Shown in pieces: positions 11,974 to 24,396 of a DNA stretch of 31,927 bases. The translations under genes and the position numbers were made by a program. The notes beneath the pieces are model-generated. The model did no database searches, had not been told where the DNA came from, and was given only the letters and a program-made list of their open reading frames with translations. The stretch lies in NCBI GenBank assembly GCA_022925895.1, contig JAKSYS010000702.1:1-31927 (forward strand), given 5' to 3'. Position 1 is the first letter of the stretch. Each line of letters opens with the position of its first letter. This DNA is from Fragilaria crotonensis. Its lineage: Eukaryota > Bacillariophyta > Fragilariophyceae > Fragilariales > Fragilariaceae.

Positions 11974-12407
11974 GAATTGCCCGGTACATGAACTATTACT
12001 GAAGTCTACAAGATCATATGATACACGTTATGCATACACAGTATGTGTATACGAGTACTGTACCTGATTTCTGGACTATTTCTGGCATACAAGTAGTATG
12101 ACGTATGACATAGATACTATTCATACATACTTACATACTACATACCGACATCCGACAGACCGACATACCCCTTTCACCTCTACTGTCGTAGCAACCGTTA
12201 AATCATGCCAAAAAAAAAGGGGAAATTGCTATTGTACCTGTTATCTACTCCAAAAATTGAAAACACCTGTTATCTGCTATAATATACCCCCTCAAATGAC
12301 AATAATAGCACGCTAATTTTTAATATACCCATAACCCCAGTTATCTTTTTGCAATTTTTGCAATAGCACCACTTATGTTTTACACAATTTGCAAATAACA
12401 CCTGTTA
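11974..12407. other. Upstream region of msrA, then AT-rich degenerate repeats
   Basis: The interval 12000-12150 contains ATACA/TACAT-rich sequence. From 12225 a motif like AACACCTGTTATCTGC recurs loosely (near 12231, 12249, 12396, and again at 13207 beyond the MITE). No gene was seen. The MITE sits inside this repeat tract. Confidence 0.5.
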
Positions 12408-12521
12408 GAGCATTCTCTATGGAGGGGTATATTTGAGTAAATTTCAACTTTTTTTCAAAAAAGCATTCTCTATGAGGGGGTATATTTGACATTTAGGGGG
12501 GGTCACAAATATACCCCCCCT

Positions 12522-12563
12522 GGTCAGATTTCGAAAATCTGGCCAGATTTTCGAAATCTGACC
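12522..12563. repeat. Perfect 42-bp palindrome inside the MITE
   Basis: The interval 12522-12542 (starting GGTCAGATTTCGAAAATCTG) is an exact reverse complement of 12543-12563, with no spacer. A shorter perfect palindrome, ATCTGACCCTAGGGTCAGAT, lies near the right end (13142-13161) and shares the GGTCAGAT motif. Confidence 0.9.
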
Positions 12564-12666
12564 CCTAGGTATATTTGGGGGGTATATCGTTGCATTTCTC
12601 ATTCCGCGTGTCAAACTGCGCGTCATCCACTCGAAACCCTCCTAGTAGTCACACTTCATACTCCTG

Positions 12667-12963
12667 TTGATACCAGCCAAATCACCACGCCTGGAACTCC
12701 GACATCACCTTCGTCTCGACGCTCTCCCCGAAGCAACAAGACGAAGGCATGTAGCTACTAGTATTACTATCATACTACCGGTAGCGCCAACAGCAAATCG
12801 GATGCTGTCGGATGAACTCCGACGACACATCCGCCTCGACGCTCTCCCCGAAACAAGAAGACGGCACGTACCAGTGAAAACAGCGCATCAGACGCTGACG
12901 AACGAACTCCGACATAAAGTCGTCTGCCTCAACGCGCTCCCCGAAGCAAAAAAAGGCACGTAG
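12667..12963. repeat. Three diverged tandem repeats of roughly 110 bp in the MITE interior
   Basis: GAACTCCGAC...CGTCTCGACGCTCTCCCCGAA-CAA-AAGACG-CACGTA recurs three times, starting near 12690, 12811 and 12905. On the plus strand the units are open and read as ELRHHLRLDALPE, ELRRHIRLDALPE and ELRHKVVCLNALPE. In another frame the motif reads RRSPRN/SK. It is possibly captured gene sequence. A real product is doubtful. Confidence 0.5.
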
Positions 12964-13196
12964 CCACTGTATGTGTTGTTTTTGTTGTCGGCTCTACGAC
13001 TTCTGCCTCGTCACTTCAATGATGAGATGATGAGACTCGAGAAGTCTGCCGGGTAGTGTAGGAAAAGACCAGTACGTCAGTAGAAAAGGGGGTCAACGAT
13101 AGAGAATGCTCAATTTTTCATTTTTTAAAAAGGGTATATTCATCTGACCCTAGGGTCAGATTTTTGACGTACCCCCCTCAACCATAGAGAATGCTC

Positions 13197-13652
13197 TTAC
13201 AATCTGCAATAACACCTGTTTGGATGGTGCCAATTTCAACTCCACGCAGATTATCATACCCCATAATGTACAAAGCCAACACATTGACACCCTTTCAAAG
13301 GTAAGGATCTCATGCATTGCTTAGCATTATCATGTGTTTCCCACTGATGAGGAAATAAGCTGTGTTATTCCATTGACAAGGCTTGGCTTGTTGGTGTGAG
13401 GAAGTATGTGGTCATCTTGTGTGCTCTTGGGTACATTGTGCTTGCATTGTCATACGTCTTCAGATTTCTTGGGCTTGAGACCGGCCAATAACAAAAATCC
13501 CTTGTATACAGTGCTGTACAAATGTACAACGACGATCTTTTTTGACACCAACACAACACAATCTCATCAGCCATTCATTATCATCAACAGCATCACCCTC
13601 TCCCTCCCCATTCCCTTTTTGACAGTCCCTGTCACTGATTTCTTGTCTCATT
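13197..13652. other. Spacer and probable 5' leader of the Ulp1-like ORF
   Basis: No gene was recognised. The last 90 bases before 13653 are C/T-rich (CATCACCCTCTCCCTCCCC), like a 5' UTR. Confidence 0.4.
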
Positions 13653-14757: not shown

Positions 14758-16630
14758 TAGCTAGTATGATGCTTACTTAAAATACAATGTGGTGCACCAT
14801 GTACCACATGTCATTGTCATCATGGTCTCTTCCTGTATCATATTATTGCCAATCCGTTGACTTCCACGCTGTTTTATGATTGGAACTTCATTTTTAGCAA
14901 TTCTTGATACTGAACCTAATATGATGGCTGCTTTCAACAGTGATTGCAAGGTGACTTGGCCATGCCCTCCATGCACTTCATAAGAGACCTCCGTATTGTA
15001 CACAAATTCCTTGTGGGCAGTGTGACACCCTTGGAAATTTCACTTTCACACAGCCATGCCAATGACATTGTGCAGCTGTCTGCAAAAAATCCCTCAATTT
15101 GGGATAAATTGAGATACTTGTGGGTACCAGCTCAAGGTGGAAAATGAGCAGGATTTCCAGGGCCTTAAATCTGGCCCTTGAGTAGAAGTACTGCTGGAAT
15201 GTGGTTAAGCCCTGATTAGTGCAGCATTTTAGATCTAATGTAAACTCTTGTGATAGTGGATGAGGCATCACAATGTTTGTGAGAGGAATATTTATGATGC
15301 AAGGTGAAGCCATGCTGGAGCATGTCTGTGATTGAATTTGCTCATTGTGTACAGTATTTATGCATGTATTCTGAGGATTTACCTACACATAGAATCAAAT
15401 AACTGATATCAATAGGGAGGAAGAGCGGAAATTGTATGCCATCAAATGATGCTGGAGATTTGGACGAACAAATGTACCAAGGGAAATGACAAATTGCGAG
15501 TATTAATGTTTCACAGATGGCTACTGTAGTACCTAATTCAATTGATTGTGTGCCGAAGGAGCAAGAATGAGCAAAGCCTTTTCAAGGAAAGAAGCAGAAA
15601 GGTCCCGAAAATGATCATGAAGAATCTTACCCACATCATACTAGCTCTTATGATGATAGGCAACGGAACTATCATGGCCATTATCAACAGAACTGAGGCA
15701 GTAACTGCTGAACAACAACAACAATAATTACTACTGATGCTCAGGCAGAGGGTGAAGAAGTGTAAGAGGCTAAGGCAGTTACGAAGGTTGAGGAAGTCCA
15801 TGTTCATTGCATTTTTCCTGGTAAGAGGGTTATTAAAATTCAAATGGAGACAACAATCACCTGCACACATGGTGAATACAGGTCAACAAGGAAACAATAC
15901 AGGGTCCAGAAAACAGCTCAAGGTACAGAGAAGCTTTCATGATGGAAACAAAGGTGCATCAACACACAAAGCACACCATGTATATCATTGACATGCTCAA
16001 ACCTGATCAATGAATCTGTCTCCACCTTTCTAGCACTTGAGCTCATTTCTCGGCTGCTCTTTTGCTCACTGAAACTTCAGTACCAGCCTCATTATGGAAG
16101 CTTGGTTTCCCTTCACCAAAACTGGAATGACCACGAGCTTTCTACACAAGGACCCAAACACTTGGCCACTTTACTTATCAATCAGCCAAAACAAGCTTGT
16201 AGCAGAACCCAGATGTGGAGGTGCCACTAAAGCTTCTATCGACAAGTTCTTCATCTTGACTTAATGTGAAACGCCTTTCTTAGCAATGGCATCACCACAA
16301 CTACCAAATCAGCCTTCCACTTCATTGTCACAGCACCTGGCAATCTAATTAGCTGGATTGCCTCCCTAAGGAGAGCACTGCAACTTTCCATGATGACTTC
16401 ACTCAAGAAAACAATGCTAACTTGAACAGAACTCCTTGTCCAAACACAATTAATGTGCACTAATCACCACCAGCAGCAACGCAACATAAGCAGCCAAAGA
16501 GTACAGGCAGATGACAGTCAAATCAGGGCATCGTTGAACAAACGAAGGCAGTAGAACATGCTTCAGCATCATTGTTCCCGAAAACTTCTTCCTCTGAACC
16601 CGGCTGATTTGCACCTTTCACAAGCAAAAG
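14758..16630. other. Unassigned decayed sequence
   Basis: Open stretches on both strands (for example 14978-15313 minus, 15737-15991 plus, 16251-16460 minus) have plausible composition but no motif I recognise. Runs such as CAACAACAACAACAA at 15714-15726 occur. It is probably more mobile-element debris between the Copia fragment and the nested transposons. Confidence 0.35.
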
Positions 16631-16635
16631 TCTTA

Positions 16636-17660
16636 TCAGATTGCTGTCAGTGCCTTGTGTGTGCAACTTCTTCCAGCTGGTAACAGGTCTACCTTGTCAT
16701 AATCAGCCAGCAACATTCCTCCCAGTGTCATCAATTGCTGGTGGGATGGAACCCCTGAAGAGCAGATTGCCATCCAATGAGCATTTTTCCGTGAACAAAT
16801 TTCAGCTGCCTTGATTGATGTGCCAGGAAGCAAATCTGAAATGTCTGCCAAAGGCAGTCTGATCAACCATTTGCCAGACCGCTTCACTTCATAAATATTG
16901 ACGTTGCAAGTAATCTTTGAGGTAGCTCCCAGTTATGTGGCTGATATCTGATATGCTCATCACCTTTCCTTAGCTAGAAGTGCACTGGAGCGACGATGAT
17001 GATCGAAATTGCAAGGAGGGATTATTGTCCATCATCATCAGCATTGGTGCTGCTCTTAGCTTGGAGTGGACTGCCGTTGCCAGACCATCAACTTTGACAT
17101 TATATTTGTCATCTTCAAATAGAGTACCGTACGTGGCGCTAGTATCGTGACGATGCTTCATCCACTGGTCAGTTAGTGCTGGTCTGCATAGTTCCTTAGT
17201 AGTGACAAGAAGCTATGATGTCATACTTATCAGTGGGCACTTTCAATTTCAGTCTGAGAATCTTCTGCCAACAAACCTTTCTTTTACGATTCCACCCTAA
17301 CCATTTCTCTGCTTAGTCTCCTACTTTGACGCCGATGGCAAATAAAGAGACACAGTTATAATAGGTGTTACGACTACGCCTCACACACAATCTTACCAGA
17401 TTAACTTTGGTTTCAACTTTCAGCATGGCACCCCTGTGATCACTTGTGGAGATGATGAAGACAATTGTGTTCTTCCCTTCATTCACATGTTAGTATTCCT
17501 GGAAAGAAGCAGCAGAGTAAGATAACAAAAGCTTCTATTTGATAGAAACTGAATGAGATACGTCTACCGGTAATAGAGGAACCTTAACTCTTTGTGAACA
17601 TAAGCTCCAAACTCAGAATTTGGAAACATCTTGCCCAATTGCTTCTGCAGCAGTTCCAGT
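16636..17660 (-). pseudogene. Coding-like minus-strand fragments of an unrecognised gene
   Basis: From about 17660 downwards the minus strand reads LLELLQKQLGKMFPNSEFGA and YVHKELRFLYY. A possible intron (GTAGAC ... TTTCCAG) leads to NEGKNTIVFIISTSDHRGAM and LKVETKVN. A second possible intron starting GTAAGATTG precedes AEKWLGWNRKRKVCWQKILR, LKLKVPTDKYDII, then QWMKHRHDTSATYGTLFEDD and KYNVKVDGLATAVHSKLRAA. A separate stretch at 16636-16887 reads KWLIRLPLADISDLLPG. Several stop codons interrupt. The composition is convincingly protein-like over about 1 kb, but I do not recognise the family. It could be a decayed host gene or a transposon gene. Confidence 0.4.
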
Positions 17661-17663
17661 AGC

Positions 17664-17736
17664 TAGTAGGCAAGCGTTGCGACTCATTCGTACCGAGTCT
17701 GAACACCAGGCCCCTGCTTGTTTGCACAAACCTTCA
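17664..17736 (-). pseudogene. Continuation of pogo-like transposase beyond the Harbinger insertion
   Basis: Directly outside the left end of the Harbinger element, the minus strand reads RFVQTSRGLVFRLGTNESQR. This is the end of the helix-turn-helix segment typical of pogo-like transposases (the pattern RRFV-x-LV-R-GT-ESQR). It is in register with the other half at 21228-21674 once the insert and one TCA copy are removed. Homology fades after about 17665. Confidence 0.65.
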
Positions 17737-17981
17737 GGCTCGTTCTTATCGAGCCTCGTTTTTTGCGGAGGTCCGCAATCTTCTCATGACTTTTTCTGAC
17801 GTGGCCCATTCCAACATTCTTATCGGGAAACAAATATCAAAAACTCCGCAACCTTTGCAGACCTGTGAATTACTTCCACCACGCGTAGTATAAAGTATAC
17901 TAATACTCGGAGTACATCTTTGTAATTGGTATGCACTTGTTGGTTTCTTAGTGTCGCACACTGATCTTGCTTTCAAGTGCA

Positions 17982-19432
17982 ATGGACGTTGCTGCGACCC
18001 CCTGCCTCAACAGGAAGCGCAAGATCAAGGCATTTCCCATTGAACTGGCAAATGCGACAGATGACCGCAGGTCAAGATTTAGCTTCGCTTTGGAGCTTGA
18101 TCCAAACCGAAGGAGCAAAATATGATGGATCTGAGTCCCTTGTCGCCAAGCAGTTGCAGTCAACGTCGACAACAGGAAAGTTGTTGTTGATCTAAAGACT
18201 CTTGTCGTTGATCATCTCTGTCTGTTATGCAAAAACATAGGAGTTGTTAATTGTGGATCTGCCAATAACTTTGATTGCCGAAAGGCCCTTGCTACTTACA
18301 TCAAGTACCACGACGAGTTGGAGCGAAAGGGCCTCACTGCAACCTCTACTGCATCACGACTCACTAGCACTATATGTCGTGCGGTGAATGTTGTATTTAG
18401 CGATCAATTTGTTGAGAACTTCTTTACCGTCAACAACAACATGTCCAGACACGACCATGAACAAACCAAAAGAAACCCGAAGTCACTCTGGATTGCAGCT
18501 ACTCTTGCCCACAATTCTTGCATCGAAAGCGACGTTGATCCACATACGATGGTGCTTCTGCTCCTCCCAAGTATAACATCGACGTGTCTGTCGCAGCAGG
18601 CGAAACAGCGGAAGACGATGATGACGCAAGTACCGTTGGTTGTGGTGGAGCTGAATTTGGCACCCGTGATCCCTTCTCAACAATTCTGAACAATGATCAT
18701 GATCCTCTCATTGAAGGAAGCCTTGAGACTGACAAAGCCATAAACTTCTGGAGGTTGATATCCAATTTGATACAAAGGCGTTTCGGAAAAAAATTCTTGA
18801 CCGTTTCAAGATCCGCCGCATTATGAAGGAGAACATGACAGTCTCTGGCACACACGACAACGAGCCCTGGAATTTTGTTGAGAGTGCAATGACAAAGGTA
18901 CAAGGCTTCACCAAGACTTTTTTTGTGTATTTCTTCTACAAGCGATGCGAAGCATATGATGAGATTGACGCGGTATTCCAACCATTTTTAGATCCAGCCT
19001 TTGTTGGCGATACAACTAGCCTTGGTGGATGCAATGACAGTGACGACAAGGAAGATGGTGTGGGAAGTATTGCTACTACTTCCACGAATAGCTTAAAGAA
19101 GCAAGGTGCGAAGGTGGAGAAGAATGATGATACTAGTGCATTCGACAAAAAGCATTCACTCAAGGTCAGATGACAATACATCATGTGGAACAATCGGCCA
19201 ATCGTGAGCAAGCTCATTTTGAACTTGAACAGGAATCGGCCATTCGCGAGAAAGCTCGTTTTGACCTTCAACAGGAATCGGCCAATCGTGAAAAAGCGCG
19301 TTTTGACCTTGATCTGAACTAAGATAAGTTCTTTGCGTGTCTTGAGGTTGCAAAGGCCATGAACGATTATGAAGAGCTCTCGCAAAATTGGAGAAGGAGG
19401 CTAATGAAATGCCTTTGGTGCTGGGATTGTGA
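17982..19432 (+). pseudogene. Harbinger-associated accessory protein (diatom-type), decayed
   Basis: It starts MDVAATPCLNRKRKIKAFPI and continues with RRSRFSFALELDPN and SESLVAKQLQ, then VNVDNRKVVVDLKTLVVDHL, CLLCKNIGVVNCGSANNF, DCRKALATYIKYHDELE, and after several frame changes AFRKKILDRFKIRRIMKENM, TVSGTHDNEPWNFVESAM and YFFYKRCEAYDEID. A coiled-coil repeat region follows, and KLEKEANEMPLVLGL ends at a TGA at 19430-19432. I recall this protein type as common beside DDE nucleases in diatom genomes. By analogy with Harbinger Myb-like proteins it may bind transposon ends, but I cannot identify a Myb/SANT domain. Frame changes near 18123, 18540-18560, 18650-18750 and 19170, and a stop near 19319, make it inactive. 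Confidence 0.6.
19188..19313 (+). repeat. Three 42-bp repeats encoding a 14-residue coiled-coil unit
   Basis: The reading EQSANREQAHFELE, QESAIREKARFDLQ, QESANREKARFDLD is three consecutive 14-residue units (42 bp each) with charged/hydrophobic spacing suited to a coiled coil. They lie near the C-terminal end of the accessory protein. Confidence 0.8.
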
Positions 19433-19680
19433 GCAATCAGATCTTCAGTCTACTATTTTGCCTTTTTTGTTTGAATTTGATATCGCAAACGTAATTAGAT
19501 AACAACGAAACTTCGACGACGAGTCTGACCTCCCATTAGTGCTGATGTCTGACCTGTGAGTTTAAGACTACTAGACAGCCATGTAGATGTGTACGTAGCC
19601 GTAGCACAGTGGGTCTAAAAACCTTCTTACCAGAACGAAACATAATGTGAACTCGGATTACAAGCTGTGACTATTTGCTG

Positions 19681-20924
19681 TTATGACACTCCCGGATGAG
19701 TGAGTTGCATATACTCAATTTCCTTTGTTGCCATCCAATCACGGTTCATTGACCACGGATTCTCGAAGGCATCTTCCATTTCTTCCCATTCAATATCAGC
19801 AGCACTCTCGCGCAACATGGTTTTGTGGGTGGTGAACCTCACATTACTTGGCGTGAATACTGCACTGTCCTGATTATTGTGTTGCTTTGCTTGGAGACGC
19901 TCGTTGATACAAAATTGTGAAGCCGTGCAATTGCTACCATCAACCTCTTCATCTTTATCATCTTAATTGAGAGCGGTCAAGCGAGAATTCCCCACTTTTT
20001 CACCATGAGCCCGAATGCCATTTCAATTCGGATGCGAAGCTGACTCGAAAAAATTGAAGTTGCCACTTCACTGGGCCATCTCACCCCTATAGATGGGTAT
20101 GAGGTGTTCACTTGCAGTGTAGGCACAATTGCCAATAGCACAATAGAGGCCAGGAAGACCTTCGACCGACGAACCTAATTTCACCATTTTGATCGCATCT
20201 CGATCCCCAATCACTCCAGGTCCTGCAACACCAAGGGACGAAGTGAAGCGACAATGATGGTCACATGCGGCCTGTATGCCTGTATGTTAAGGCCATGTGT
20301 CTGGTAATGACAAGAGAAAAAGGATTGTACGTTCTATTCCTCCTTTTTTGATGGCGTCTGAATTTGTAAGTGGTATCTATCGATGACACTGACACAATTC
20401 CGTATAGATCCTTCTTGCGTGCTTATCGTTTCAAATCCCCTCAAAGCCTCTTTGACTTCTTCCAATGTTTTCGGAAGTTTAACAGCCAAGTCATCACATT
20501 CATTGATAGCATCAATGCATTTCCAAACAACACGATAAAGCAATGCAACAGACATACCGGTGAAAATTTGATATCCGAATATGACCCACCAGCCAGATAC
20601 CGCAAACATGCATAGAGGCATCATTCTGGAAGTATTGGACCACCTCTCAGACTTCCCATGTGTCGATCAATCTCCAACTTCTCCCTGACTAAAGACAGTA
20701 GTCGAATAAAAGAGTCTTCTGACATTTGTAGGTGCCGTCTCAGATTTGGTCTGCCAGCATGCTTTGACCAAAACGCCTCCCAATGTACTAAGCTGATCAA
20801 ATATGGAGGAGATTGCTCACTTCTTTTATTCCTCCTGTTCTTCTTTGATCTCATTTCTTCCAATATAGGTTGTAGCAGTAAGCCTTGCAACAAAGGATGC
20901 AAATGTACCACCTGCTTTTTTCAT
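19681..20924 (-). pseudogene. HARBI1-like DDE nuclease of the Harbinger element, decayed
   Basis: It starts MKKAGGTFASFVARLTATTY (ATG at 20924). After frame changes it reads RRHLQMSEDSFIRLLSLV, GGPILPE, LYRVVWKCIDAINECDDLAV, then SIRNCVSVIDRYHLQIQTPS with the first catalytic Asp. Next come GLNIQA, AGPGVIGDRDAIKMVKLG, then AIGNCAYTASEHLIPIY, where the usual second catalytic position GD is GN (near 20121). SQLRIRIEMAFGLMVKKWGI supplies the catalytic Glu, followed by VAIARLHNFV and a C-terminus ending at a TAA at 19681. At least four frame changes and the missing Asp make it non-functional. The DDE nuclease would cut and join the element ends. Confidence 0.8.
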
Positions 20925-21073
20925 TGCTGCCAAGAACTGATTGTTACTATGAACTGTGCACAAGATTTACAGTCATAATCCCTTGCACGCTCGAGAATTT
21001 GCAAAAAAGATTTCGTGAAACATGAATTGATGGTCAGCACCAGCTTGCAGAGTCATTCTGATCCATTTGAACC

Positions 21074-21116
21074 CATAACCCCCGCACATCCAAAGAACTG
21101 AGTTGCGGGGGTTATG
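21074..21116. repeat. 13-bp perfect hairpin upstream of the nuclease start
   Basis: CATAACCCCCGCA (21074-21086) and TGCGGGGGTTATG (21104-21116) are exact reverse complements with a 17-base loop. The hairpin lies inside the Harbinger element between the right terminal repeat and the nuclease gene. It could be a subterminal binding site or a remnant of another insertion. Confidence 0.8.
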
Positions 21117-21227
21117 ACCTTTGAAGCCCTCCGCAAGTTTTTTGAATTTGCGCTGACATTGCAGCTTTTTTTGCGGGATTTGCGGACCTCCACAAAGAAG
21201 AGGCTCGATATGAACGAGCGAGCCTCA

Positions 21228-21674
21228 TGCAGCATTGTACTGCACAACTTCCAATTTTTACGCAAATTCTGTAGACAATTGCGCTGCTTTAATCTTCACT
21301 ATGGAAATGGACACTGCCATGCCCTGTTTGCGAAGTTCAAAAATTAAGCAAAGTAACTCATTTTGGAATGGTGCCAGAGATGAGATTCGTCCTTGACACA
21401 GGCTCCTTGACTTGTTATTTTGTTCTTGCCCAAAGTCTCCAAGCTGCTTCAACCATATGCCGTGATGGATGTTGAGATCCTCACACGCGGTATGTTGTGA
21501 CAACCCTTCGCCCATCTTCCTCCTCACATTGCGGACAAAAGCAAGCTTCTCAAGAATTTTGAAGTGCCTTTGCCTTTGTGGAGGCAATGGTGGCGGTGGT
21601 GCTTCCAATGGTGCTGGTTATTGAATTGGTTGCCTGGGCGGTGTTGCTTGACCATCGTCCTTGTCATTGGTCAT
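21228..21674 (-). pseudogene. Pogo-like transposase N-terminal part, interrupted by the Harbinger element
   Basis: An ATG at 21674 begins MTNDKDDGQATPPRQPIQ. After a TAA (near 21620) the same frame continues APPPPLPPQRQRHFKILEKL, FVRNVRRKMGEG, HTACEDLNIHHGIWLKQLGD, and then FELRKQGMAVSISIVKIKAA. After a second TAA at 21258 it reads KLEVVQYNAA up to the insertion point. This is the helix-turn-helix N-terminus of pogo/Tigger-type DDE transposases as seen in stramenopiles. The frame resumes on the other side of the Harbinger element at 17736. Nonsense codons show that the gene was dead or dying regardless of the insertion. Confidence 0.7.
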
Positions 21675-22484
21675 AATTATATTCAATGGTGGATCTTGTT
21701 TGGACTGTAATATTAAGGAACGAGTTGCAAGAAAAACAGGAATCTTGCACATCGCTAAAGTCGAAACACGTGGTGGATTGGTGGATAAGCTCCATTTCGG
21801 AAATTTCGTGCACAATTCCCGGTGCTCAAGTTACGCTGTTCACGGAAGAAATGAATGTTGTATCGTACTACAAGTACGTACAATACTCCTGGCTTCCTGG
21901 CTGACAACGCATTCATGCTTGATACTTCGACTCTGGGTTAGTACTACCGGTAGCTGGAGTTCAACAGTACAGTTGTAAGAAGAGTAGCTATCTACTCTAC
22001 TGGAGTTCAAGTATTCGTACTACCGTATTACCTCGGAAATGCGACCGAGGTAGTACTTCTCTTATAGGATTCCACCGATCTTGCGGATTAATTAGAACTG
22101 GTACTATGTTGCATAATAGGGGTACTTGATGACGTTTTTCGTGCGTTTGCGTGGGGCATATGAACTGCAAACGATAGTACCAGCATTTTGGGTTCTGCAA
22201 CATCTGTTGCACCTACGGTATCTTTACGTGCTTCGTATATGGAACGAATGCAACTTTTTTCCCGAGGTACTCTTCTACGTTTTGCAATACTAGCTCTACT
22301 AGTTTGTGGGTACCCTGAGCCCTGAGACCAGATTTCCAGAATGACACAAAACACAAGCCGCAACGAACCATCGACGATGCCATTGGCGGCTTCGCTGCCG
22401 GAGTCGCCTTGCGCGGTCTCGTTACCACACAGATTGCGGATGATGTCAATCTCCCTTCCTTGATCTTGGGAACGCTCTTTGGAG
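21675..22484. other. Spacer with GTAC-rich part and an ambiguous two-strand open region
   Basis: GTAC-type low-complexity sequence lies at 21850-22060. The interval 22210-22500 is open on both strands. Plus-strand readings include RFAILALLVCG and GGFAAGVALRGLVTTQIADD. The minus-strand reading includes LVELVLQNVEEYLGKKVAF. I cannot decide between them and call no gene. Confidence 0.35.
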
Positions 22485-23075
22485 GAGCCTACTTCGCGGG
22501 AGCAGCTTCTTTCGCAGCCTTGCGTTCCTCGGCCATTCTTTGTCGCTCCATCTCCTGCTGTCGTCGCCTCTCAGCAGCTTCTTGGGCCTATGCCTCGCGC
22601 TCTGCCTCTTTTTACAATGACGCTCAGCTGTACCACCTATAGCAGCGGCCTTCTTAATCTTCGCCCGCTTGTTCATGACGACACGCTTCTGCATCAGCAG
22701 CCTAAGCCGCACGTTTTTGTTCTTGCTGAGCGATGACGTGGTTGAGCCAACGCAGCAACTTCCGCCGCTTTCTTTGCCTCAGCTTGTTCGCAACGACGTG
22801 CTTCTGCTTCAGCATCCTTGGCGGCAAATTCTTCCTCTCGTCGATATTGCTGAGCCAACGCAGCCATTGGGCTGCATTTTTCGAATCGCTTTCTTGCTGC
22901 GCCTGTCGGGAGCAGAGCTCTGCTGCCTGCGTTCTTGTTCGCGACGTTGTTACTAGCAGAAGCCTCCGCCAGGCGCTGTTTATCCGCTGCAGCAACGGCA
23001 GCAGCCTTCTTGGCCTCAGCCGCGACATGCTTCAGCCTTGGCAGTAAGTACTTCTTCTTCCTTGCGACGCGGTGC
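22485..23075 (-). pseudogene. Decayed Ala/Glu/Lys/Arg-rich coiled-coil gene
   Basis: The minus strand reads VAAEAKKAAAVAAADKQRLA, then AALAQQYRREEEFAAKDAEA and EARRCEQAEAKKAAEVAALA, a frame change to AQQEQKRAA with stops, DAEACRHEQAGE, and finally QEAAERRRQQEMERQRMAEE, ending AAPAK at a TAG near 22486. These are long charged helices in imperfect repeats of roughly 45-50 residues. At least four in-frame stops and several frame changes are present. Such low-complexity coiled coils give no clue to function. Confidence 0.5.
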
Positions 23076-24396
23076 TGTGCTGCAGCTGCTCAGATCGACT
23101 CTTCTTTGTGCTGCTTTTCATGCAAAATTGCGGATACCCCCTGTTGGGCTTAAGCTCCTCCTATCAAAGTTGTCTTGGCAGAATGGGACTGCCTCTCAAT
23201 CCCAATGTTGCTAATAGTAGCTCATCTGTTGTTCATTGTACTTGTGCTTTTTTACTGTTAACACTTTTAGCGTTACTTGACAATCTACCTTCAGAATACT
23301 CGCCAGTACTCCGTTTTAACACGGCAAAAGCACGGGGTTTTTCCTGCTTGGCGAATATACCATGCCCTACATGGTTGCTTTATTAGTTTCATGAATTTTA
23401 GGTACATCCGTAGTACTCTGTCGAACTGCAGCAATACACGAATACAGTACACGAATAGAAGAATACAAGTACTGAACAGATCGTGCATTTTGCATTACAT
23501 ATAGGCATTTTGCTACATGTAGCAAAAAGTACAGTACAGTACAGTACAGTATCGTACTGCCTATTTGTCGACGCGCAACGCGCGTTCGAGCAATCCTGGT
23601 CGATTCCCTCATTTTCCGCGTCGCAAGAAGAACAAGCATGATGGCCAAGATTCGCTGTCGCCTCCTAAGACTAGCAGTTTGTTTCAGCTCATTTTCTTTA
23701 GGAAGATACACATTGTGAAGGTAAGATGGCATATAGAACAATATGCAAAGAATTCTATGCACTGGGTAAAAAGAAAGACGATGTGTTGCTGCGCACCACC
23801 GATCATATTGTTAGAGACCAGAAAGCGTATTTTCATGTTTCTCGATCTACTTCCAATCAGAAGAGCATTCGCATTCCCTTACCTGTGCCAATGATATTAC
23901 TGCGAGGACAGGAAAGTACTGCAAAGTGCTATTTCGTTTCGTTTCAACCTTGAACCATCACATCCTTTCGTCCTCAACCCGTGCAGCAGCAGCACGTACA
24001 GGAAAAACGTTTCCAAAGAGCAAAACTGGTCAAAAGAACGTTTGTCCTCAACCCTAGAATGTGTGACTTTGATATTTCTTGAATACCGTGAAAATGTCCG
24101 ATGACACTTTGTGCTGTACTGCACTGAATACTATAGAGATGTGTGACGATGGAACACATGCAGACTCGCAGTACGGTACAACTAGTAGTATGCGGGAATT
24201 CATTGCGACTCAAGACTTCGCATCTCTGATGCAACTATGGTTCGCCAACTCTTGCTGATTCCTCAAGCGCCAACAACCAAATCATGGCGTATTGGAGCAG
24301 CTACCAGCCCGCAGGACGAGCTTAACTTCGAAGCCTGGCGCGCTGACCTGCGATTTATCGAGCATGTCATCGACCACTCCTTTGTCTTCACGGCCT
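23076..24396. other. Intergenic region with GTAC-rich DNA, short palindrome and AGTAC microsatellite
   Basis: GTAC-rich sequence runs from 23270 to 23560. It includes the perfect 20-bp palindrome TTTTGCTACATGTAGCAAAA at 23508-23527, followed at once by four AGTAC units (23528-23547). Plus-strand open stretches at 23565-23953 are not recognisable. At 24305-24345 a fragment resembles the 3' end of the adjacent long gene (GCTCGATAAAT and CGCAGG-CAGCGCGC shared), which hints at a small local duplication. Confidence 0.5.

Follow-up and report, generated by a model that had tools for sequence, protein, structure and literature searches.

We analysed a 31,927-nucleotide stretch of Fragilaria crotonensis DNA (contig JAKSYS010000702.1, hereafter the window), in which a precisely bounded Harbinger-type element is nested in the remains of a pogo-like transposase gene. 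We consider it highly probable that a cut-and-paste transposon encoding a DDE_Tnp_4 transposase inserted into a copy of the pogo-like gene at a TCA, and that it belongs to a clade that targets T-N-A, mostly with C or G as the middle base. The ends of the element, its target site duplication (TSD), an empty counterpart of the site, the clade and the TSDs of its members were observed directly in the genome searched (62.1 Mb, 881 contigs).

The window reads TCA at 17734-17736, GGCTCG... from 17737, ...GAGCC up to 21224 and TCA at 21225-21227. A second copy of the element, 89% identical across window positions 17732-21216, was found on contig C394. This copy ends on both sides in the inverted repeat GGGCCGTTCTTATCGAGCCTCG and lies between two TTA triplets. 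Base 17737 was taken as the left end because the C394 terminus, counted from CGTTC, matches the left terminus of the window (GGCTCGTTC) in length. Contig C797 carries a duplicate of the window locus, possibly its other haplotype, colinear over C797:57567-96356 with 89-99% identity in pieces and several insertions and deletions. It is without window 17348-19871, and thus without the left part of the element. Its right end reads GAACGAGCC followed by TCATGC, and the window terminus, GAACGAGCGAGCC, therefore carries 4 bp more. These extra 4 bp are also absent from C394, and would most simply be a small later duplication. Two further candidates were rejected: C408 holds about 140 bp of the left end only, preceded by TCA, and C678 has only the final 28 bp in common with C394, its other end not being found in the 4.6 kb examined. 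A first-pass annotation of the sequence had proposed a Harbinger element of about 3.49 kb with TCA on both sides and ends at 17737 and 21224. C394, C797 and C410 (see below) bear this out, and no copy with different termini was found, C394 and C797 placing the ends consistently. The element lies within the range then given, 17734-21674, which also takes in pogo-like flank.

A paralogous pogo-like sequence on contig C410 lacks the element and represents the empty site. Its homology to the left flank extends up to window base 17735 and that to the right flank begins at 21225. The joined flanks aligned to C410 over 262 columns, with 214 identities and 22 gap positions, none of them at the joint. 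The alignment scored 254 bits when one TCA was removed, as compared with 244 bits when both were kept, 243 bits when both were removed and 230 bits with the inner ends. Chance resemblance of the flanks was rejected, as C410 aligns straight through the joint. The nesting and the order of insertion inferred in the first-pass annotation are thus upheld by the empty paralogue, the second copy and the duplicate locus together.

At the joint itself, C410 agrees with the prediction except at the single base that had been foreseen. On the coding strand, the codon at the joint is CGA (Arg) in C410 and C82 and TGA (stop) in the window, that is, TCG versus TCA on the other strand; C383 likewise codes for Arg at this position, using another codon. 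Both TSD copies in the window carry the changed base (A versus G in C410 and C82), and the change therefore most likely occurred before insertion. One pre-insertion change accounts for both copies, and a post-insertion origin would require two parallel changes. This comparison indicates that the TGA stop is very probably older than the insertion and that the pogo-like gene was most likely already interrupted when the element arrived. Removal of the element had been described as restoring the frame. The frame does resume across the joint, but the relic frame at 21225-21629 contains two further stops besides the TGA.

The same comparison bears on whether the target was originally TTA, both TSD copies having later mutated to TCA. 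The TTA at C394 fits such a history. It would, however, need the same change twice and, starting from the TCG seen in C410 and C82, two steps, and it leaves the TCA and TGA pairs at other copies unexplained; we regard it as extremely improbable.

We propose the following sequence of events. A single C-to-T change on the coding strand, at a CpG, would have converted the target from TCG to TCA and the Arg codon to a stop, leaving this copy of the multicopy pogo-like gene dead before the DDE_Tnp_4 transposon moved into it. The transposase would then have made a 3-bp staggered cut at the TCA, as is established for 3-bp duplications, and gap filling would have left TCA on both sides of the element. 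Within the clade, T-N-A would serve as the target whatever its middle base, mostly C or G in practice, and the other Harbinger clades examined in this genome would use TTA or TAA, the choice being set by the transposase itself.

Features of the nested pair, in window coordinates
Feature	Position	Strand	Remarks
Harbinger-type element (PHIS superfamily, DDE_Tnp_4)	17737..21224		3,488 bp; both genes broken; 89% identity to C394 element over 17732-21216
Left TSD, TCA	17734..17736		Read from sequence; C410 empty site holds TCG once at the same place
Left terminal inverted repeat, GGCTCGTTCTTATCGAGCCTC	17737..17757	+	Length to end equals C394 terminus
Right terminal inverted repeat	21200..21224	-	4 bp longer than that of C797, by comparison with C797
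Right TSD, TCA	21225..21227		Read from sequence; C797 also TCA
Accessory gene remains	17982..19431 (end approximate)	+	Frame broken; C394 counterpart is a 512-amino-acid open frame
DDE transposase gene remains	19681..20930 (limits approximate)	-	In-frame stops and frame breaks
Pogo-like transposase remains	21225..21629	-	About residues 20-158 of the 442-amino-acid C383 relative; 2 stops besides that of the joint
Pogo-like gene, continuation past the insertion	17638..17736	-	C410 homology stops near 17638

We then asked whether the TCA is particular to this insertion. The terminus pattern with a preceding T-N-A, middle base free, gave 54 matches in the genome versus 3 for a backward control. 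Nine of the 54 read TCAGTATC and seemingly belong to another repeat. Both ends were read in a subset of these matches and of 118 transposase matches; single-end loci were left out of the count. Fourteen distinct two-ended sites were assigned to the window's clade, and in 13 of them the middle base of TNA is C or G: five are TCA (C672, C329, C75b, C799 and C311), eight are TGA (C101, C319, C531, C118, C324, C871, C73 and C234), and C394 alone is TTA. All eight other insertions are at TTA or TAA (C163a, C51, C163b, C438, C807, C301, C228m and C246). The difference between 13/14 and 0/8 is significant (Fisher p = 2.8e-5). It persists without C329 and C228m (12/13 versus 0/7, p = 1.0e-4), when only transposase-bearing copies and C101-like derivatives are counted (9/10 versus 0/8, p = 4e-4) and for transposase-bearing copies alone (4/5 versus 0/6, p = 0.015). 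The first-pass annotation, which called for such a tabulation, had observed correctly that TCA departs from TTA/TAA; it stopped short of the finding that TCA or TGA is usual among the clade members examined (12 of 13 clade-tied sites, C394 being the TTA). On this tabulation, the TCA of the window looks like a trait of its clade rather than an accident.

Non-autonomous derivatives were assigned by sequence, C118, C324, C871, C73 and C799 to C101, C75b, C234 and C311 to C170, and C51 to C163a. Compared with one another, the flanks of the 22 sites (130 bp to the left and 130 bp to the right) gave no match at an expectation (E) value of 0.01, and the insertions are therefore independent. Repeat sites recognized by their flanks were excluded (C90, the same as C531; C756, as C319; C869, as C73; and C797, as the window locus), as was C525, whose ends differ (TAA/TAG). 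Among the single-end loci, C408, C678, C170, C218, C55, C66 and others have TCA or TGA, and C599 (in two places), C579, C208 and C228 have TTA or TAA.

These counts bear directly on whether the element is an ordinary TTA/TAA Harbinger for which the TCA was a rare off-target insertion. Of 46 insertions of mPing carrying TCA ends, 45 were at TTA or TAA and one was at TCA, as reported by Gilbert et al. 2015 (PMC4561436), in whose transposition assay flanking triplets with a C or G middle base had a small effect. Such a precedent, together with the TTA at the closest copy, would allow for an accident. The TSD table stands strongly against it, given C/G middle bases in 12/13 clade-tied insertions and 0/7 of those of other clades, and we judge an accident very unlikely. 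The TSD table and the empty site together led us to reject both off-target insertion and mutated TTA as the source of the TCA.

Several points weigh against a clade defined by C/G targets. Insertions were assigned to groups with their duplications already known, the p values ignore relatedness, and C329 and C228m have no parent among the loci examined. A strict TSA rule (S being C or G) does not hold for the clade, as C394, the full copy closest to the window element, has TTA. Of all TNA triplets in the loci measured, 69% are TCA or TGA; were the middle base chosen freely, at least 13/14 would arise with P = 0.04 and at least 12/13 with P = 0.053. C491, where TGA was read at one end, has a very long branch placed outside the clade and misfits a single origin. 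Under the same free choice, the 0/8 and 0/7 of the other clades have P = 9e-5 and P = 3e-4, respectively. The window's clade is thus clearly relaxed as to the middle base of TNA, and its preference for C or G is weakly shown; the other Harbinger clades examined in this genome look strict for TTA/TAA. All 14 clade sites have a TNA duplication, in a search whose pattern itself favoured T.A.

Transposases of the clade grouped with a support of 100/99 in a tree of 23 rows, and of 100/100 over 21 rows when the long branches C491 and C672 were left out. Rows for C170 and C491, and for C525, C599, C579, C228 and C208, were labelled from one end alone, and four rows were unlabelled; for C491 (end at L037 1823) the other element end was not found. 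In the 21-row tree a single change of middle-base type suffices, on a branch with 70/60 support, and one change was recovered in 74% of bootstrap trees. The 23-row tree needs two changes, because C672 pairs with C394 and C491 (TGA) falls outside the clade. We tentatively suggest, at somewhat less than even confidence, that a single change in the transposase tree separates one Harbinger lineage, with TCA/TGA as its target, from its sisters, with TTA/TAA. The midpoint root leaves the direction of change unfixed; a change away from TTA/TAA is the bolder and the likelier direction. If a single change is correct, comparison of relatives on either side, and of the pair formed by C394 (TTA) and the window (TCA) at 89% identity, could reveal which residues recognize the middle base of a target.

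Both genes of the window element are broken, and its classification comes through its relatives. One strand of C394 carries a 512-amino-acid open frame; the opposite strand carries a 309-amino-acid transposase frame, a stop and then a 102-amino-acid stretch. The 309-amino-acid protein matches DDE_Tnp_4 (PF13359) with an E value of 9e-16, and the transposase frames of C101 (495 amino acids) and C319 (457 amino acids) match with E values of 2e-21 and 1e-21. The transposase pieces of the window are 60-84% identical to the C394 protein; three of them, searched singly, gave no DDE_Tnp_4 match. As judged by the DDE_Tnp_4-type transposases of these relatives, the element belongs to the PHIS superfamily (PIF/Harbinger, ISL2EU, Spy, Pangu, Nuwa). 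Comparison of the C394 transposase with solved structures gave two matches at an E value of 0.8 and nothing notable. An accessory protein is common to C394, C101, C319 and C531 (42-49% identity to that of C394). Profile searches with it gave no Myb/SANT match at E values up to 0.1 or 1, and a weak SAP-like match to SAP_new25 (E = 0.012 for C101 and 0.002 for C531, both below the family cut-off). Structures predicted for two pieces of the window's accessory gene had predicted local distance difference test (pLDDT) scores of 38 and 44 and were too poor for use.

By sequence comparison, the host gene is pogo/Tc5-like and multicopy in this genome. Its DDE_1 assignment rests on C383, a 442-amino-acid open frame with a DDE_1 match (E = 5e-22) and a weak match to a Tc5-type DNA-binding domain, and on C410, whose protein match spans the DDE_1 region (residues 138-431). 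The window relic stops short of the DDE_1 domain and represents the first part of the gene only, because homology to C410 ends near 17638. It resembles pogo/Tc5-type DDE_1 transposons through C383, and is unlike them in being a truncated relic with stops.

Other differences between the window and C797 were recorded. Window 12407-13197 (about 790 bp) is absent from C797, where the flanks overlap by 6 bp, and copies of 93-99% identity occur on at least 10 other contigs; a solo long terminal repeat or some other recent insertion is probable. Next to it, window 13194-13835 matches a repeat on 10 contigs at 91-92% identity, and TCAGTATCGTTCTTATC lies about 1 kb away on eight of these; the two are perhaps one family. 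Window 22031-23413 (about 1.4 kb), adjoining the pogo-like relic, is missing from C797, and C797:69532-79549 (about 10 kb) has no counterpart in the window at 14922-14931.

By its silicon transporters the genome is very probably that of a diatom, though such transporters are not wholly restricted to diatoms. A PF03842 profile search of the genome gave 19 matches, 18 of them above the cut-off and up to 646 bits; one of 14 control genomes had a match, none above the cut-off. C97:29749-33762 encodes three silicon-transporter domains in one 1,456-amino-acid open frame, and C771 encodes two in one 1,008-amino-acid frame. A putative transporter fragment in the C871 derivative (22.5 bits, below the cut-off) was dropped, as blastn and tblastx gave no match to two transporter loci.

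A nested pair of this type is an ordinary kind of event, though here well proved by the empty site. With PIF/Harbinger elements (mPing/Pong, PIF) the window element shares a DDE_Tnp_4 transposase, a second gene, short terminal inverted repeats starting with G, a 3-bp T-N-A duplication, a length of about 3.3-3.8 kb and, at C394, TTA. It differs in the TCA of the window and in the TCA or TGA at 12/13 of its clade, and no Myb/SANT was detected in the accessory protein, which gave a weak SAP-like match. Han et al. 2015 (PMC4482050) give the TSDs of PIF/Harbinger, Pangu, NuwaI and NuwaII as TWA, ANT, CWG and C|TNA|G, respectively; the window TCA falls outside the 5'-TWA-3' definition, and the C394 copy of the same family has TTA. 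Harbinger-like elements of the diatom T. pseudonana (PMC2806351) and Harbinger7 insertions in a haptophyte (PMC10138859) are mentioned in excerpts of two other papers, the target not being stated in either. A literature search of titles and abstract beginnings, with many journals outside its coverage, returned no TCA/TGA duplications for diatom Harbingers.

The window copy may belong to NuwaII, and it is a real possibility, though one we hold with reserve, that the clade is this published group, now in a diatom. The clade agrees with NuwaII (PMC4482050) in its TNA duplications, TNA including TTA, in terminal inverted repeats mostly starting with GG, in having two genes and in its length of about 3.3-3.8 kb; the survey covered 836 genomes (121 protist), and its 12 NuwaII species are animals, fungi and plants. 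The likeness, drawn from the published description rather than from phylogeny, does not extend to a strict C..G context, and no Myb/SANT was detected in the accessory protein. In the window the site reads T|TCA|T. The complete C|TNA|G context is present at 4/14 clade sites and 2/8 others, and C before or G after TNA is about as common in the clade (16/28) as in the TWA set (9/16). With C|TNA|G as a precedent, the clade is best regarded as a variant within the PHIS superfamily and not as a new kind of element. Because copies 89% identical differ in their duplications (TTA and TCA), caution is needed in classing such elements by target duplication alone. Bacterial IS5-type elements of the IS1031 group also make 3-bp TNA duplications; they resemble the window element in their related DDE transposase and TNA target, and are unlike it in being bacterial and having a single gene. 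The clade provides a naturally occurring contrast in which to study how a DDE_Tnp_4 transposase picks the middle base of its target.

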